From Lachnospiraceae bacterium AC2028 (lineage in GTDB: Bacteria > Bacillota > Clostridia > Lachnospirales > Lachnospiraceae): a DNA stretch of 56,134 nucleotides. The notes beneath the pieces were generated by a model that saw only the letters and a list, made by a program, of their open reading frames with translations, did not search any database and was not told where the DNA came from. The stretch's first letter is position 1; each line of letters begins with the position of its first letter. The translations under genes and the position numbers were made by a program. Location of the stretch: NCBI GenBank assembly GCA_000702685.1, contig JNJD01000002.1, positions 1-56,134 of the forward strand, given 5' to 3'. Shown here piece by piece: positions 4,795 through 56,134 of the stretch.

Positions 4795-5889
4795 ATGAAG
4801 ATCATGGCCAACAGCATGGCACCCGGATTCCGGATGCATCAGGATGAATATGAAGAAGCCGCGCTCAGGGTCCTTCGGAGCGGATGGTACATCCTGGGAA
4901 AAGAAGTCGAAGCATTTGAAGAGGAATATGCCGCTTTCCACGGAAGCGGGATCACCTGTGCCGGCGTGGCTAACGGACTTGATGCCCTGATCCTTGCCGT
5001 AAGGGCTCTGGGGATCGGCGAAGGCGACGAAGTCATCGTCCAGGGCAACACTTATATCGCATCCGTCATGGGAATTTCCATAAACGGCGCGACTCCTGTA
5101 TTTGTTGAACCCGATGAACATCATCAGATCGATGTATCCAAGATAGAAGCGGCGATCACCCCGAAGACCAAGGCGGTAATGGTCGTTCATCTCTACGGTC
5201 ATATCTGTGATATGGATAAGGTCTCGGAGATCTGCAAAAAGCACGGACTTAAGCTTGTTGAGGACTGCGCCCAGGCGCACGGTGCAAAGTGGAACGGAAA
5301 ATTAGCCGGAACCTTCGGGGATGCGGGATGCTTTTCTTTCTATCCCAGCAAGAATATCGGCGCATTCGGCGATGCAGGAGCGGTCATATCCTCCGATCCC
5401 GAACTTATCGGCAAGATCAAGGTTCTCAGAAATTACGGATCCGGCAGGCGTTATTACAATGAAGTCGTGGGCGTGAACAGCAGACTTGATGAGATCCAGG
5501 CAGCGCTCCTTCGCGTAAGGCTCAAGTATATCGATGAGATCACCTCGGAAAGAAGAAAGATCGCATCCGTCTATAACGAAAAGATCACAAATCCCGCGAT
5601 CATAAAGCCCGTCCAGCAGGAAGGCGGATACGAGGTCTATCACCAGTATGTGATAAGATCGGACCGCCGTGATGAACTGATCGAATATCTTAAGGAGAAG
5701 GATATCGGCACCATAATCCATTATCCGGTTCCGCCCCATCTCCAGCAGGCATATGAGTACCTCGGACATAAAAAAGGCGACCTTCCCATCTGCGAAAGAT
5801 ATGCGAATGAAGTGCTTTCGATCCCTATGTATAACGGTATGACGGATGAGGAACAGCAGTACGTTATCGATGCGATAAATAAGTTCTGA
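4795..5889 (+). CDS. DegT/DnrJ/EryC1 PLP-dependent sugar aminotransferase
   Basis: 364 residues from the ATG at 4795, chosen because AGAGGT lies 7 bases upstream; the frame is open further upstream. This is a fold-type I PLP enzyme that transfers an amino group, usually from glutamate, to a nucleotide-linked keto-sugar. Visible motifs: GVANGLDALILAVRAL near the cofactor phosphate, EDCAQAHGA with D158 contacting the pyridine nitrogen, and FYPSKNIGAFGDAG with K186 as the likely PLP lysine. The C-terminal GTIIHYPVPPHLQ block is typical of DegT proteins. It probably supplies an amino sugar for a surface glycan or flagellin glycan, but no other nucleotide-sugar genes are next to it. Confidence 0.88.
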   Translation: MKIMANSMAPGFRMHQDEYEEAALRVLRSGWYILGKEVEAFEEEYAAFHGSGITCAGVANGLDALILAVRALGIGEGDEVIVQGNTYIASVMGISINGATPVFVEPDEHHQIDVSKIEAAITPKTKAVMVVHLYGHICDMDKVSEICKKHGLKLVEDCAQAHGAKWNGKLAGTFGDAGCFSFYPSKNIGAFGDAGAVISSDPELIGKIKVLRNYGSGRRYYNEVVGVNSRLDEIQAALLRVRLKYIDEITSERRKIASVYNEKITNPAIIKPVQQEGGYEVYHQYVIRSDRRDELIEYLKEKDIGTIIHYPVPPHLQQAYEYLGHKKGDLPICERYANEVLSIPMYNGMTDEEQQYVIDAINKF

Positions 5890-5908
5890 TAAATCAATAG
5901 AAAATATT

Positions 5909-5954
5909 AAATCAGGTCAATTTTTGCAGATGCAGGAATTGACCTGATTTTTTG
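5909..5954 (+). terminator. Rho-independent terminator after the aminotransferase gene
   Basis: A perfect 14-bp stem (arms 5909-5922 and 5937-5950, core ATCAGGTCAATT) with a 14-base loop, followed by a T run. The symmetric A/T flanks could let it work in both directions. Confidence 0.88.
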
Positions 5955-6023
5955 CATAAACCGCATAAAATAGCCGTTATCGGAGTATATTGCTTAAAAT
6001 ATATCAATAAAACAGGTTAAAAT
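5954..6023 (+). repeat. Paired direct repeats upstream of the leuA-araC promoter
   Basis: Two short direct repeats lie just upstream of the -35 box: GCATAAA at 5954-5960 and 5963-5969, and TTAAAAT at 5994-6000 and 6017-6023. The second pair is spaced by about two helical turns, as AraC-family half-sites often are. Binding is only inferred, since A+T-rich DNA yields such repeats by chance. Confidence 0.25.
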
Positions 6024-6028
6024 CGCTC

Positions 6029-6057
6029 TTGATTTTGGCAAACTATAGTGATATTGT
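6029..6057 (+). promoter_or_regulatory. Sigma-A-type promoter of the leuA-araC gene
   Basis: TTGATT, 17-base spacer, TATTGT. The predicted leader before the ATG at 6107 is only about 45 bases, too short for a T-box or leucine attenuator. Regulation is therefore more likely to involve a DNA-binding protein. Confidence 0.6.
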
Positions 6058-6106
6058 GTTGCCATAATAAGCAGTGCGGGAAGTATATCCGCAGTCAGGA
6101 GTTAAT

Positions 6107-8110
6107 ATGAGCAAGATCAATGTAAGCGAAAAGTATCAGCCCACATATCATATGCCTCCGGTATGTGAACATAAGTGGGTAAAAAAGGACAGGATCACCG
6201 CACCTCCCATCTGGTGCAGCGTTGACTTAAGAGACGGAAACCAGGCTCTCATCGATCCCATGAGCCTTGAGACCAAGCTGGAATTCTTCAAGCTCCTCGT
6301 AGATGTTGGCTTTAAGGAGATCGAGGTAGGATTCCCCGCTTCATCCGACACCGAATTCGAATTCATCCGTGCACTCATCGAGAAGGACATGATCCCCGAT
6401 GACGTGACCATACAGGTACTTACCCAGGCCAGGGAGCACATCATCCGCAAGACCTTCGATGCGGTAAAGGGATGCCCCAAAGCGATCGTCCATCTCTACA
6501 ATTCAACCTCCGTTGAACAGAGAGAGCAGGTCTTCAAAAAGGAGAAATCCGAGATCAAGAAGCTTGCGGTTGACGGCGCCGAATTATTGAAGAAGCTTGC
6601 CGACGAGACCGACGGCAATTTCATGTTCGAATACAGCCCCGAGAGCTTCTCACAGACGGAGCCCGAATTTGCCCTTGAAGTATGCAATGCCGTACTCGAT
6701 GTCTGGAAGCCCACTCCGGAAAAGAAGGCGATCATCAACCTTCCTTCCACCGTACAGGTTGCGATGCCCCATGTTTTTGCGGACCAGATCGAGTTTATGT
6801 CCGATAACCTCAAGTACCGTGAGGGCGTAGTCGTATCCGTTCATCCCCACAACGACAGAGGCACGGGCGTAGCCGATGCGGAACTCGGCGTTCTTGCGGG
6901 TGCCGACAGGGTTGAAGGTACTCTTTTCGGAAACGGCGAGAGGACCGGTAACGTCGACCTTGTGACCGTAGCCATCAACATGGTCACACACGGCGTTGAC
7001 AGCGGACTTGATTTCTCCAACATCATGGCGATCCGTGAAGCATATGAAAGATTCACCAATATGAAGGTCCACGAGAGAACCCCTTACGGCGGAGACCTCG
7101 TATTTACCGCTTTCTCCGGCTCGCACCAGGATGCGATAAGCAAGGGAATGAACTATCGCGCGGACGGCAAGACCGGAAAGCGCTGGGATGTTCCCTATAT
7201 TCCCATCGATCCCACCGATATCGGAAGAGAGTACGAGTCCGATGTCATCCGTATCAATTCCACCTCCGGTAAGGGCGGCGTGGCATTCGTGCTCAAGCAG
7301 CAGTTCGGCTTCAGCCTTCCCGCTGCGATGAAGGAAGAGGTAGGATACCTTATGAAGGGCGTCTCCGACAGAAAGCACAAGGAGCTCAAGCCCGACGAGA
7401 TGTTCCAGGTATTCGAGGATGTATATATCACCTCCAGACCCGTATTCGATGTTACAGAAGTTCATTACAAGCAGCTCGGCGATGCAGGCATCGAGGCGGC
7501 CGTAAGCTTCAAGGACAAGAACGGTGAGATCGTTGTATCCACCATAGGAAACGGACGTCTCGACTCCGTGAGCAATGCACTCAAGCTTTATCTGGGTGTG
7601 GATTATGAGCTCACCGGATATGAGGAGCATGCGATCTCCAAGACCAGTTCCTCCAAGGCTGCGGCTTATGTCAGCGTTGTTTCCGAAGGAAAGACCTACT
7701 GGGGCGTAGGCGTTGACGAAGACATCATCAAGGCTTCGAATGCGGCACTTGTCAGCGTTGTGAACAAGGTTGCGACCGAGCAGCATGTAAACCGCGGACG
7801 TGAGGAGAGACTTGTCGAGATCCTCACCTTCATACAGAGAAATTACAAAAACGTTACTCTTGACGATCTTGCCGATCAGTTCCATTTATCGAGACCCTAC
7901 ATCTCCAAATACATCAAGGAAAAGTCCGGTGAGACCTTCCAGGATGTGCTCAGGATCGAAAGACTCAAGAGGGCAAAGACCCTTCTCAAGGATACCGGCA
8001 AGAGCATCGAAAAGATCGCAGAAGAGATCGGCTATGACAATGTCGAGCACTTCAACAGGCTCTTCAAGAAGACCTACGGAATGACCCCCGTCCAGTACAG
8101 GAAGAACTGA
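6107..8110 (+). CDS. leuA: 2-isopropylmalate synthase fused to an AraC-type DNA-binding domain
   Basis: 667 residues from the ATG at 6107 (AGGAG 6 bases upstream), about 100 longer than a usual class-2 LeuA. It condenses acetyl-CoA with 2-oxoisovalerate, the first step of leucine synthesis. The N-terminal TIM barrel shows DLRDGNQAL (D40, R42) and metal ligands in HPHNDRG (H246, H248), then the EGTLFGNGERTGN block. Residues about 430-555 match the LeuA allosteric dimer domain, ending in VGVDEDIIKASNAALVSVVNKV. From residue 565 (nucleotide 7799) to the end lies a full AraC/XylS module with both helix-turn-helix motifs (LDDLADQFHLSRPYISKYIK and KIAEEIGYDN) and the family signature FNRLFKKTYGMTPVQYRKN. 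No frameshift or stop separates the parts. I infer an enzyme that also acts as a leucine-sensing regulator. No leuBCD or ilv genes are next to it. Confidence 0.93.
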   Translation: MSKINVSEKYQPTYHMPPVCEHKWVKKDRITAPPIWCSVDLRDGNQALIDPMSLETKLEFFKLLVDVGFKEIEVGFPASSDTEFEFIRALIEKDMIPDDVTIQVLTQAREHIIRKTFDAVKGCPKAIVHLYNSTSVEQREQVFKKEKSEIKKLAVDGAELLKKLADETDGNFMFEYSPESFSQTEPEFALEVCNAVLDVWKPTPEKKAIINLPSTVQVAMPHVFADQIEFMSDNLKYREGVVVSVHPHNDRGTGVADAELGVLAGADRVEGTLFGNGERTGNVDLVTVAINMVTHGVDSGLDFSNIMAIREAYERFTNMKVHERTPYGGDLVFTAFSGSHQDAISKGMNYRADGKTGKRWDVPYIPIDPTDIGREYESDVIRINSTSGKGGVAFVLKQQFGFSLPAAMKEEVGYLMKGVSDRKHKELKPDEMFQVFEDVYITSRPVFDVTEVHYKQLGDAGIEAAVSFKDKNGEIVVSTIGNGRLDSVSNALKLYLGVDYELTGYEEHAISKTSSSKAAAYVSVVSEGKTYWGVGVDEDIIKASNAALVSVVNKVATEQHVNRGREERLVEILTFIQRNYKNVTLDDLADQFHLSRPYISKYIKEKSGETFQDVLRIERLKRAKTLLKDTGKSIEKIAEEIGYDNVEHFNRLFKKTYGMTPVQYRKN

Positions 8111-8124
8111 AAGGGAAAAAGAAA

Positions 8125-8994
8125 TTGAACGGCTGGCTTATAGTTAATTCATTCGTAAAATGGGACAAGTTCAGTGAGATATATGAGCTTCTCCTTAATG
8201 CGGGCAGAAAAGTCGGAGTAAGTCTTGAGATGAAGACTTCTTCCGATATCTTCTGCAGCGTGCAGAGCGAGTTTTCGGATCTGGAACTTCCCGATTTTGC
8301 GATCTTTTGGGATAAGGACATCCTCCTGGCAAGACGCCTCGAAAAGATGGGCCTCAGGCTCTTCAATTCATCCGAGAGCATCGAAACCTGCGATGATAAG
8401 GGGCAGACTGCGATCGCGCTTCTTGACGGAGGGATCAGGACTCCGAAGACATTCCTTTCCCCCAAGGCATATCCCGCATTCGGATGCACGGACATGGCAT
8501 TCCTCAGAAAAGCCGAGGAAGCACTCGGATATCCCATGGTCATCAAGGAAAACCGCGGCTCTTTCGGTCAGCAGGTTCACCTTGTGAACAATTCCTACGA
8601 GGCGGAAAGGCTGATCGCTTCCTTCAAAGAGCATCCCTTCGTCATGCAGGAATACATCGAGGAATCCGCGGGCAGGGATGTGCGCGTAAATGTTGTCGGA
8701 GGGCGTGTGGTCGCTTCGATGTACAGATACAACGATAATGATTTCCGCTCCAATATCACAAACGGCGGAAGCATGAAAAAGTACGAGGCATCCGAAGCCC
8801 AGGCGAAGATAGCGATAGATGCATGCAAGGCCATAGGTCTCGATTTTGCCGGTGTTGACGTTCTCTTCGGCAAGAACGGTCCCATAATATGCGAGGTCAA
8901 CTCAAATCCCCATTTCAAGACAACTCTTGAATGCACCGGTATCAATATGGCCGAACATATCATTTCCCACATAGCTGAAGTAATGGGTGCGTAA
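8125..8994 (+). CDS. RimK-like ATP-grasp ligase (first of a pair)
   Basis: 289 residues, TTG start at 8125 with AAGGG upstream, only 14 bases after the leuA-araC stop. The family joins a carboxylate to an amine through an acyl phosphate, for example glutamate addition by RimK or CofF. The ATP-grasp core is intact: lysine in YPMVIKENRGSFGQQV, the RDVRVNVVGG strand, FRSNITNGG, and the metal-binding EVNSNP near the C terminus. An N-terminal pre-ATP-grasp part covers about 1-95. The substrates are unknown. It is followed with almost no gap by a second ligase of the same family, and both are probably transcribed from the leuA-araC promoter. Ribosomal protein S6 modification is possible, but rpsF is not nearby. 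Confidence 0.85.
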   Translation: MNGWLIVNSFVKWDKFSEIYELLLNAGRKVGVSLEMKTSSDIFCSVQSEFSDLELPDFAIFWDKDILLARRLEKMGLRLFNSSESIETCDDKGQTAIALLDGGIRTPKTFLSPKAYPAFGCTDMAFLRKAEEALGYPMVIKENRGSFGQQVHLVNNSYEAERLIASFKEHPFVMQEYIEESAGRDVRVNVVGGRVVASMYRYNDNDFRSNITNGGSMKKYEASEAQAKIAIDACKAIGLDFAGVDVLFGKNGPIICEVNSNPHFKTTLECTGINMAEHIISHIAEVMGA

Positions 8995-8995
8995 A

Positions 8996-9823
8996 ATGAA
9001 CAGATATGCGCTCCTTGTCTATGCAATAAAAGATATCGAAAAAAACAGGTGGTTCATCGATCGGCTCACCGCTCTTTTCAGGGAGCGGGGAGTCGATCTT
9101 TTGCTGAAAACCCCGGAGGATTGCAAAGAGACCGAAGATCCCGCGTTTGTCATCAACAGATCGAGAGATCCTTTTGTATCGGAATTTTTCGAGGAAAAAG
9201 GAATACGGAGCTTCAATGATTCCGAAACGGTCCGTATCGGTAACGATAAGCTTGCCGAATACGAGTTTTTTAAAGAGCTCGGCCTTCCCGTGATGGAAAC
9301 GGTGCCCGGGGATACTCCCGCGGATAAGATCCCGTTTTCTTTTCCGGTGATCGTAAAAGAAAGAGCCGGGCACGGGGGAAGCGGGGTTTATAAGGCCGGA
9401 TCCGCCGAAGAACTGGCCGGTATCCTTGAAGGAAAGGATCCGGAGGGTTTCATTTTCCAGGAAATGTGCGACGAGCCCGGTGTCGATGTAAGGCTCTATA
9501 TTCTCGGGGGCAGGGTGGTTGCGGCGATTAAACGGACCTCCGCGGACGACTTCAGGAGTAATTTCAGCCTCGGCGGAAATGCCGAAGCTGTAGAGCCGGA
9601 CGAAGAGATGAAAGCCTTTGTGGATGCAGTCTGCGAAAAGCTTGCGCCCGACTATATCGGTCTCGATCTGATAAGGAATAACGGCGGATGGGTGGTGAAT
9701 GAGATAGAGGATGCGGCGGGGGCGAGGATGCTCTACGCCCGGACCGATCTCGATATCGCGGATGCTTTTGTCGCATATATTTATGAAAAAACTTTCCAAA
9801 ACGCCGAAAATGGGATAAAATAA
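8996..9823 (+). CDS. RimK-like ATP-grasp ligase (second of a pair)
   Basis: 275 residues, ATG one base after the stop of the first ligase, so translation is probably coupled. The core is recognisable: FPVIVKERAGHGGSGV for ATP binding, VDVRLYILGGRVVAAIKR, DDFRSNFSLGG, and IGLDLIRNNGGWVVNEIEDA. The final metal-binding motif reads EIED where the first ligase has EVNSNP, so one ligand position differs (Asp for Asn). The two proteins share domain order but are clearly diverged, which suggests an old duplication with different substrates or sequential additions to one product. The product is not known. A short intergenic region leads to the foldase gene. Confidence 0.82.
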   Translation: MNRYALLVYAIKDIEKNRWFIDRLTALFRERGVDLLLKTPEDCKETEDPAFVINRSRDPFVSEFFEEKGIRSFNDSETVRIGNDKLAEYEFFKELGLPVMETVPGDTPADKIPFSFPVIVKERAGHGGSGVYKAGSAEELAGILEGKDPEGFIFQEMCDEPGVDVRLYILGGRVVAAIKRTSADDFRSNFSLGGNAEAVEPDEEMKAFVDAVCEKLAPDYIGLDLIRNNGGWVVNEIEDAAGARMLYARTDLDIADAFVAYIYEKTFQNAENGIK

Positions 9824-11474: not shown

Positions 11475-12806
11475 ATGGAAATACTCATCCCGAAAGACGC
11501 CAAGTCCATAATCGATAAACTGAGCGAAGCCGGCTACGAAGCATATATCGTGGGCGGCTGTGTCAGGGACTGCCTTCTGGGACTTACTCCCGATGACTGG
11601 GATATAACGACCAATGCACTTCCCGAACAGGTGAAGGAGCTTTTCAGACGTACGATAGATACCGGCATTGAGCACGGAACCGTTACCGTCATGATCGGAA
11701 ACGAAGGCTATGAGGTGACCACGTACCGCAGCGACGGAGCGTATTCGGACGGCAGGCATCCCGACAAGGTGACCTTTGTTCCTTCGTTGGAAGAGGATCT
11801 TAAAAGACGTGATTTTACGATCAACGCAATGGCATATAATGACAGCGAAGGACTTGTCGATCTCTTCGGCGGAAGGGATGATATAGCGTGCAGGACCGTA
11901 AGATGCGTCGGAAATGCCGATGAGAGATTTTCCGAAGATGCACTGCGTATGATGAGAGCGGTGAGATTTGCCGCAAAGCTCGGATACAGCATAGATGAAG
12001 AGGCGCTTTTCTCGATAAAAAAGCTTGCTCCCACGCTTTCGAAGGTATCCGCGGAGAGGATAACCACGGAGCTTACCAAGCTGCTCACATCGGATCATCC
12101 CGAGATGCTTGAAGTGCTTTATGAAACGGGGCTGACGAAGGTGTTTTTCCCCGAACTCGATAAGGCCTATGATACTCCGCAGGTCCATCTTCATCATTGC
12201 TATGATGTCGGAAGACATATCGTGGAATCCGTAAGGGCTTCGAAAAATGACAGGATTGTCAGATTTGCCATGCTTCTCCACGATATAGGAAAGCCCGATA
12301 CCCTTACCGTTGATGATAAGGGCATTACCCATTTTCACGGCCATCCCGAACTGAGCGCCAAAATGGGTGAAGAGATAATGAGAAGATGGAAGCTCGACAA
12401 TGATACCATCTTCCGGGTATGCAGACTGATCAGGCACCACGATATGGGAAAGGGCAAGAACTGCACACCCGCATTTACGAGAAAAGCCGTCTCCGTGATG
12501 GAAGATGATTTTCCCAGGCTCCTTGAAGTCATGAAGGCCGATGTTCTCGCACAGAGCGAGTATCAGAGGCAGGAAAAATTAAGCAACATCGATAATTTCC
12601 GCAAAGAATACGAGCGCATAGTAAGCGAGCACGAATGCTGCAGCCTTAAGGAACTGGCGGTCGGCGGACGCGATCTTATCGAACTGGGGATCAGCCCCGG
12701 TCCGGTTATGGGCGAGATACTCGGAAAGCTTCTTGACAAAGTGATAGAAGATCCCGGTTCCAATACCAGGGATACGCTTTTGTCTCTTGCAAAGGAATAC
12801 ATATGA
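11475..12806 (+). CDS. cca: CCA tRNA nucleotidyltransferase
   Basis: 443 residues from the ATG at 11475. That start is chosen because MEILIPKDAKSIID aligns with the usual start of the family, while the open frame upstream runs into the terminator. The enzyme adds or repairs the 3' CCA of tRNAs, which matters here because the tRNA genes in this window lack an encoded CCA. Motifs: GGCVRD at 27-32, catalytic DWD (D41, D43), RRDFTINAMAYN, and the ERF-SEDALRMMRAVRFA helix. A C-terminal HD domain follows (LLHDIGKPDT, then HHD), making it a class II enzyme with a phosphohydrolase-like tail. No Shine-Dalgarno is visible in the short space after the terminator. The gene overlaps the lipoprotein gene by four bases. 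Confidence 0.93.
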   Translation: MEILIPKDAKSIIDKLSEAGYEAYIVGGCVRDCLLGLTPDDWDITTNALPEQVKELFRRTIDTGIEHGTVTVMIGNEGYEVTTYRSDGAYSDGRHPDKVTFVPSLEEDLKRRDFTINAMAYNDSEGLVDLFGGRDDIACRTVRCVGNADERFSEDALRMMRAVRFAAKLGYSIDEEALFSIKKLAPTLSKVSAERITTELTKLLTSDHPEMLEVLYETGLTKVFFPELDKAYDTPQVHLHHCYDVGRHIVESVRASKNDRIVRFAMLLHDIGKPDTLTVDDKGITHFHGHPELSAKMGEEIMRRWKLDNDTIFRVCRLIRHHDMGKGKNCTPAFTRKAVSVMEDDFPRLLEVMKADVLAQSEYQRQEKLSNIDNFRKEYERIVSEHECCSLKELAVGGRDLIELGISPGPVMGEILGKLLDKVIEDPGSNTRDTLLSLAKEYI

Positions 12807-14215
12807 TCAGCTGGTCGGACATTTACAACTTTATACGAAAGTACTGGGCATACGTGCTGTGCATGGTAATGACGATCACCTGCATATCCGGATGCACGGG
12901 CCCTTTTACGCCCCGACCCGTTTCACAGAATCCGCCCGAGCCTCAGCAGGATACGGGATTTGTCCTTTACGGAACCTACGATTACGATTCCACCGACACG
13001 GCGGTACTCGTCGACAAGAACACCGAAGAGGGCACGCTCACCTTTCTTAACAGGGAAAACCACAGAAGGTACACTCTCGGCTATGACGGGACTACGGGCT
13101 TTTACGACAGATATAACGGTCTTATTTCCTTAAGCCAGATTAATGTCGGTGATATCCTGAACGTAAGGTTTGTAAAGAGCAAAAGACACCTGACACTTGC
13201 GTCACTTTGTCCGGATGCCTGGACAAAACCTTCCACCGATCAGTATGTATTCGACAGTGTGAAGAAAGAGGTTACGATCGGCTCCGACATATACAAGCTT
13301 GCCGATGACTGCTTCTGCTATTCCGGCAAGGAAGAGCTCATGTACCAGGAGCTCAACAGTGTCGATGTGCTCACTTTCCACGGGATAGATTCCACCGTCT
13401 ACAGCATAAACGTGGATAAGGGCCACGGATACCTGAGACTTTCCGGCCATGAATATTTTGTAGGTGGTTGGATCGAAATCGGCACCAAATTCATATGGAA
13501 AGTGACCGATGACATGCTGCTCACGGTTCCCGAGGGAACATACAATGTGGTTGTTTCAGCCGAAGGAACGATGGTTGACAGAAGTGTCACAATTAAGAAG
13601 GGTCTTGAGACGGTACTCGATCTTTCGGACGTTGTTCCCGAGGTTCCCAAGGAGGGGCTGGTTCTCTTTTCACTTAATCCGGCTGACGCAACGCTTTACA
13701 TAGACGGAGAAAAAGCCGACACTTCGGCTGCGATATCACTCACTTACGGACTGCATCAGCTCATGTGCACATGTGAGGGTTATGTGACTCTGACAAGATA
13801 CCTGAGCGTTGGCGAAGAAAATGCCGGTGTCAGCATCACTCTTGAGAAGGAAAAGACCGAGACCAAACCGGACGTCAGCGGAAATACCTCCGTAAGCGGC
13901 AACGGGTCCGATGTCAGCGGCAACTCTTCAACGGGAAGCTCACAGGGGGATGTCAGCGGTAATTCGTCTTCCGAACCTAATGTGACAATGGTGTCATATT
14001 ATAGAGTGTACATAAACGCGCCTGCGGGAGCTGAGTGCTATATCGACGGTAATTACGTGGGAGTGGTTCCCTGCTATTTCAAGAAAACGGAAGGCTCTCA
14101 TGTCGTCACCCTGAGCAGCCCGGGATGCAATACAAGAAGCTATACGATAAGTGTCGATAACGCGCTTTCGGACATGTCTTTTTCGTTCACGGATCTCGAG
14201 CCGAAAAACCCCTGA
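12803..14215 (+). CDS. PEGA-domain lipoprotein
   Basis: 470 residues, overlapping cca by ATGA. An N-terminal signal (hydrophobic about 13-28) leads to the lipobox ISGC, with C31 as the lipidated cysteine, so it is anchored outside the membrane. Residues about 50-250 are a beta-rich region of unknown type. Two PEGA domains follow: about 285-350 (LFSLNPADATLYIDGEKA) and about 395-465 (VYINAPAGAECYIDGNYVG). They are separated by a low-complexity linker that repeats VSGN four times. PEGA domains are common in surface proteins and probably bind cell-wall or glycan partners. Translational coupling to cca appears to be a matter of arrangement, not shared function. Confidence 0.85.
   Translation: MISWSDIYNFIRKYWAYVLCMVMTITCISGCTGPFTPRPVSQNPPEPQQDTGFVLYGTYDYDSTDTAVLVDKNTEEGTLTFLNRENHRRYTLGYDGTTGFYDRYNGLISLSQINVGDILNVRFVKSKRHLTLASLCPDAWTKPSTDQYVFDSVKKEVTIGSDIYKLADDCFCYSGKEELMYQELNSVDVLTFHGIDSTVYSINVDKGHGYLRLSGHEYFVGGWIEIGTKFIWKVTDDMLLTVPEGTYNVVVSAEGTMVDRSVTIKKGLETVLDLSDVVPEVPKEGLVLFSLNPADATLYIDGEKADTSAAISLTYGLHQLMCTCEGYVTLTRYLSVGEENAGVSITLEKEKTETKPDVSGNTSVSGNGSDVSGNSSTGSSQGDVSGNSSSEPNVTMVSYYRVYINAPAGAECYIDGNYVGVVPCYFKKTEGSHVVTLSSPGCNTRSYTISVDNALSDMSFSFTDLEPKNP

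Positions 14216-56065: not shown

Positions 56066-56134
<69 letters not shown>

Follow-up and report, generated by a model that had tools for sequence, protein, structure and literature searches.

The gene at positions 6107–8110 of the forward strand of the window (the whole stretch of DNA that was analysed, 56,134 nucleotides) encodes a leucine-pathway synthase, LeuA, fused to an AraC-type DNA-binding domain. This fusion is a real observation, and we consider it likely that it represents a trigger enzyme of a new make, in which a LeuA protein with a C-terminal AraC domain controls its own gene. One protein would then probably both make its product and control its own production. Judged by its domains, it unites an enzyme and a putative DNA-binding part in a single chain, as trigger enzymes do; DNA binding, autoregulation, the leucine signal and the direction of control are what we infer from the comparisons described below.

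On translation, positions 6107–8110 form a single open frame of 667 codons plus stop, with no internal stop. Pfam matches, all of which exceed their cut-offs, divide the 667 residues into an HMGL-like catalytic domain (PF00682, 248.6 bits; residues 35–311, positions 6209–7039), the post-catalytic domain IPMS_D2 (PF22615; residues 330–397, positions 7094–7297), the leucine-sensing LeuA_dimer domain (PF08502; residues 426–555, positions 7382–7771) and, beyond a variable linker (residues 556–573, positions 7772–7825), an AraC-type double helix-turn-helix (HTH_18, 79.7 bits; residues 588–666, positions 7868–8104), within which an HTH_AraC match covers residues 627–666; all of these lie on the forward strand. 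The HMGL-like, IPMS_D2 and LeuA_dimer domains together give the predicted protein the domain content of a LeuA. It passed the NCBIfam subfamily model NF002991 for 2-isopropylmalate synthase, with 791 bits against a cut-off of 455, and narrowly missed the yeast-type equivalog TIGR00970, with 680.7 against 697.4. Translation and Pfam thus bear out the sequence-only reading of this DNA, which had described a complete 2-isopropylmalate synthase and an AraC domain in one frame. Upstream of the gene, a ribosome binding site (AGGAG, forward strand, 6097–6101), read from the sequence, precedes the ATG at 6107, and a likely promoter, read by eye, occupies 6029–6057 of the same strand, with a −35 box TTGATT (6029–6034), a 17-bp spacer and a −10 box TATTGT (6052–6057); a simple scan for the sigma-70 consensus did not list the promoter at 6029–6057 and listed another match instead.

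Both halves of the fusion look functional, to judge from their conservation, and enzyme activity and leucine inhibition are predicted. Among 65 distinct fusions the motifs DLRDGNQ, GNGERTGN and SHQDAI are invariant, as is HPHNDRG save for its P in one of them, and the sensor-domain residues 481–486 (GNGRLD) and 505–508 (YEEH) are at least 97% conserved; residues such as these presumably line the leucine site of Mycobacterium tuberculosis LeuA. Because the sensor domain is kept and its motifs are so strongly conserved, leucine is a plausible signal. In the AraC domain, Pro597, Tyr598, Ser600, Lys601, Ile603, Glu647, Phe649, Arg651 and Phe653 are invariant in the same 65 fusions, and the linker has a mean top-residue frequency of 0.49, the lowest among the regions computed. 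The AlphaFold model places seven helices at residues 567–666, with a pLDDT of about 85, and as modelled this part has the two helix-turn-helix motifs and seven helices of an AraC-type domain. The overall pLDDT of 76 and pTM of 0.52, together with a pLDDT below 50 for the segment 323–388 in the IPMS_D2 region, mean that the model hardly informs on the arrangement of the parts.

A synthase match was found in 30 of the 31 genomes of the genus, and in 27 of the 31, our own included, it ran from residue 1–6 to residue 666 or 667 without a stop. This excludes chance or sequencing error, and it counters the possible refutation, raised in the sequence-only reading, of a stop or frameshift near the junction. 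The three other matches in the genus were cut at contig ends (G006 and G028) or split at the junction (G023). In the family, 396 genomes were sampled: 355 of them gave a synthase match at E ≤ 1e-150, and in at least 88, again with our own, the match reached residue 665–667, at identities down to 59%; eight of these fusion genomes had a second synthase match at E ≤ 1e-150. A survey for the same domain order, which had been suggested from the sequence, has found the fusion across the genus and in many genomes of the family. In the order sample, the C-terminal part was matched at E ≤ 1e-45 in 49 of 392 genomes, all of the same family; in the class sample it was matched in 13 of 391, three of them outside the family. 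The related records are Lachnospiraceae, many from the rumen. Among plasmids, 1231 records matched the query, and the five matches listed ended at residues 553–627.

A rapid maximum-likelihood tree built on the enzyme portion (81 fusion rows and 28 others) required seven changes of label, five of them forced by starred branches, compared with 25 for shuffled labels. Several of its branches are long and 42 of its 106 inner branches are open, and with this resolution it fits one gain and several losses of the fusion. The fusions from outside the family were placed among the family fusions, and this placement suggests transfer. In two genomes, G091 (L166, 2622–4680) and G023 (L022, 800–2763), the AraC domain lies in another frame, with the switch at the junction, which may be a natural split, frameshifting or an assembly error.

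Upstream of the fusion genes there is a shared direct repeat, TTAAAATNNNTCA with a period of 23 bp, whose second copy reaches into the −35 box; in a comparison by eye, this element was common even to fusions with 64% identity in protein. In the window, the candidate operator lies at 5994–6029 of the forward strand, with the repeats TTAAAATATATCA (5994–6006) and TTAAAATCGCTCT (6017–6029), and it is an addition to the sequence-only reading, which had omitted it. The predicted target is some 40 bp long. A possible distal copy, seen by eye at 5884–5920 of the same strand, 110 bp upstream of the first, counts for little, as it coincides in part with the hairpin that follows the preceding gene; in the matrix scan of the window's own sequence it fell below threshold, and one relative (G014) has a clearer copy at the same 110-bp distance. 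A further downstream copy was found at 27 of 56 loci scanned with a fixed threshold and no shuffled control, many of these loci being close kin. Twenty of the 27 lie 73–75 bp from the first copy, which corresponds to seven turns of 10.5 bp, and the remaining seven lie 57, 59, 59, 63, 63, 70 and 77 bp from it.

In order to compare fusions with stand-alone genes, a 38-bp matrix was trained on 20 upstream regions picked from the genus. The test fusions numbered 48 (29 non-own loci and 20 of 58 other fusion places, less L050, which was too short), and the controls were 40 regions picked from the listed stand-alone synthase places. Two of these, L127 and L162, first counted as stand-alone, carry the operator and prove to be fusions, because in G091 the AraC part comes after the enzyme in a different frame and in G192 the match ends two bases before the contig end; moving them left 38 controls, or 37 in the 250-bp test, from which L160 is absent as no start was found. 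Within 250 bp, the genus matrix scored above zero in 41/48 other-genus fusions against 0/37 stand-alone genes, and it beat dinucleotide shuffles at p ≤ 0.05 in 43/48 against 1/37. Over about 570 bp, scores above zero were obtained for 46/48 fusions and 3/38 stand-alone genes, the latter being L157 (11.8 at −480, without the core), L135 (4.9) and L133 (2.2); the value for L157 is at the level of true sites, though the match lies far upstream. With the family matrix, L157 scores 5.2. The two fusions at or below zero were L062, in which the element is visible by eye, and L109, which has no element near the gene. The strict core pattern was present in 25/48 fusions and in 0/38 stand-alone genes.

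The reverse test, with a matrix built from the family and the class, gave scores above 10 in 19/28 genus upstream regions against 2/40 controls, and both of these controls were the fusions L127 and L162. The genus loci L035 and L023 scored poorly; the fusion at L035 stands directly behind an apparent other coding sequence. Three fusions from outside the family show the element by eye, although they belonged to the family training set. Nine genes in or beside the fusion clade that have no AraC domain (L126, L128–L131, L133, L135, L139 and L163, of which L131 and L133 are near kin; a tenth, L169, was left out) scored at most 2.8 with the family matrix, and L133 and L135 were just above zero with the genus matrix. 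The operator and the fused domain go together, in counts that are not independent because the fusion genes are kin.

A single copy of the operator core was found in the 2.77-Mb genome to which the window belongs, at 5994–6023 and hence at the fusion's own promoter, with no mismatch where up to three were allowed; the reversed pattern, as a control at the same tolerance, also gave one match. In the genus, 15 of 21 core matches lay at the fusion promoter and six were scattered, the matches falling in 18 of the 31 genomes, whereas the reversed control gave none. Among 23 other fusion genomes, 15 had matches to the strict pattern and eight had none. All 10 matches with at most one mismatch and three of the nine with two were at the fusion promoter, no more than about 560 bp ahead of the gene, and the six of 19 that lay elsewhere compare with four in the reversed control. 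A wider regulon was rejected on these grounds, namely a single core site in our own genome and few, scattered matches elsewhere. Among the regions upstream of leuB (L262–L267), a half-site-like sequence near GGWTAAATACGCCCCTTGAA is present at the leuB promoter in our own genome and in several close relatives; as an operator it was rejected, with a score of 0.3 and no support in more distant relatives.

T-box leaders show the opposite distribution to the operator. Rfam found a T-box at 32 of the 38 stand-alone genes (16/20 and 16/20 control regions), compared with four of 60 fusion loci at the Rfam cut-off (2/20, 2/20 and 0/20), and a T-box is also present at five of the nine genes that lack the AraC domain and sit within or next to the fusion clade. 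The window has no RF00230 match anywhere, other attenuator types being covered through Rfam only, so the fusion promoter is indeed free of a T-box, as the sequence-only reading had stated. In our own genome, four T-box-like matches, all below the curated cut-off, lie at other loci, where by eye they precede look-alike trp genes and valS. Five fusions (L042, L054, L056, L106 and L120) have the operator and a T-box signature in series: the operator lies 416–540 bp ahead of the gene and precedes the leader; in L042 the T-box core is below the cut-off. An earlier view of the T-box fusions as operator-free, from 250 bp of sequence, was rejected as the operator sits further upstream, and two-level control of leuA is possible in these five. 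At a stand-alone leuA, that of G103, a Clostridiales-1 RNA (RF01699; L131, 390–553, minus strand) lies between the T-box and the gene.

The fusion is the only synthase found in our own genome in a search at E ≤ 0.001, the other 11 matches being to the AraC part alone. The genome also has leuB and leuC at other loci, and by eye look-alike leuD and ilvD genes come after the leuC/leuB genes. Close behind the fusion gene, at 8125–8994 and 8987–9823 of the window, lie two RimK-like ATP-grasp genes, a pair present in close relatives only and absent from the other loci searched. Elsewhere in the window, positions 12803–14215 encode a 470-residue protein with a PEGA domain match at its C-terminus, and positions 56066–56134, where the contig ends, fall inside the beginning of a 16S rRNA gene, so that the window was probably cut at a ribosomal operon.

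Regulation of the fusion's own gene, as the sequence-only reading had proposed, is well supported, though indirectly, in that the operator tracks the domain, its core is found as a single copy at the fusion's own promoter and the T-box is mostly missing. If the AraC part were instead a relic or a structural appendage, the promoter element would be bound by another regulator, perhaps a global one for amino acids; DNA binding by the fusion is after all something that we infer, and the fusion genes are kin, so that a joint inheritance of element and domain need not imply any link between them. However, the linker varies but the residues of the recognition helix are invariant, the nine genes that sit within or next to the clade and lack the domain are without the element by the family matrix, and a global regulator should have more sites than the one core site of our own genome; the matches with at most one mismatch in the 23 other fusion genomes, confined as they are to the fusion promoter, also argue against one. 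We regard this explanation as improbable. Still less credence, to the point of being highly improbable, attaches to the AraC domain existing as a small protein of its own, produced through internal translation or from a split gene. It would draw on the GAGGAG that, in the window gene, immediately precedes a TTG where the domain starts, and on G091 and G023, where the enzyme and the domain behind it are in different frames; but the GAGGAG stretch is not conserved across the family, in which the peptide varies between KDER, KDAR and KDNR, and an internal start was rejected for this reason, while each split case is a single assembly and may be an error.

The fusion might also bind DNA but answer to 2-ketoisovalerate, acetyl-CoA, 2-isopropylmalate or some other signal than leucine. 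The catalytic site is a ligand site too, with invariant motifs, and Leu3 of yeast has 2-isopropylmalate as its co-activator. Against this stands the retention of the leucine-sensing domain, which adjoins the AraC domain and whose motifs are conserved to at least 97%, and we judge a non-leucine signal to be rather unlikely. In the preferred reading, autoregulation by the fusion, a homodimer held together by the LeuA domains would bring its pair of AraC domains to the direct repeats reaching into its own −35 box. The LeuA_dimer domain would sense leucine or pathway flux, and in response the two DNA-binding domains might change in their spacing or in their freedom to move; this change would switch transcription, so that the dimeric enzyme would feed back on its own synthesis via its own promoter. 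The operator copy at the −35 box would suit activation, and the second copy 73–75 bp downstream, past the −10 box, would suit repression by looping or as a road-block; both may apply, as AraC itself acts in both ways. We put forward more tentatively, at somewhat below even chances, the wider proposal that this single protein closes both leucine loops, through inhibition of the enzyme and a DNA-loop switch at its own promoter, and that, across much of this gut family, leuA has passed from T-box control to control by this protein, some species having both in series.

To our knowledge, few enzymes control their own genes through a fused DNA-binding domain, and the fusion would give the committed step in an amino-acid pathway a built-in regulator across many genera of a single family. 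The domain-less relatives without the operator site are natural controls, and the route from a feedback-inhibited enzyme to a transcription factor could be tested with one protein and one DNA fragment. We found no paper on a LeuA–AraC fusion in the open-licence PMC literature, although the domain pair, which would be a new make of trigger enzyme, may be listed in domain databases.

Compared with known systems, the operator lies in the same place as the T-box leader of a stand-alone leuA and presumably serves the same need, but the T-box is RNA-based control, and the predicted protein-based system would stand in for it or act in series with it. Among solved structures, the best sequence match is M. 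tuberculosis LeuA (1sr9/3fig; residues 24–523), which is also the best fold match, in one case leucine-bound; it has the same enzyme domains but no DNA-binding domain, and none of the solved chains listed matches both the enzyme and the AraC part. Residues 575–666 match AraC-family regulators (6swi, XylR 4fe4/4fe7 and 3lsg), from which the fusion differs in that the partner is a complete biosynthetic enzyme rather than an AraC-type sensor domain. The operator recalls AraC, which uses a pair of directly repeated sites plus another at a distance, with a repeat period of 21 bp where that of the fusion is 23 bp. The DNA-binding part of PutA is a ribbon-helix-helix and that of BirA a winged helix, neither of them an AraC domain. 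According to PMC6978683, PutA (proline dehydrogenase and put repressor) and BirA (biotin ligase and bio repressor) are enzymes that serve as transcription factors of their own pathways, and it is with these trigger enzymes, built on other enzymes than LeuA, that the fusion, given its predicted DNA-binding role, would belong in kind.
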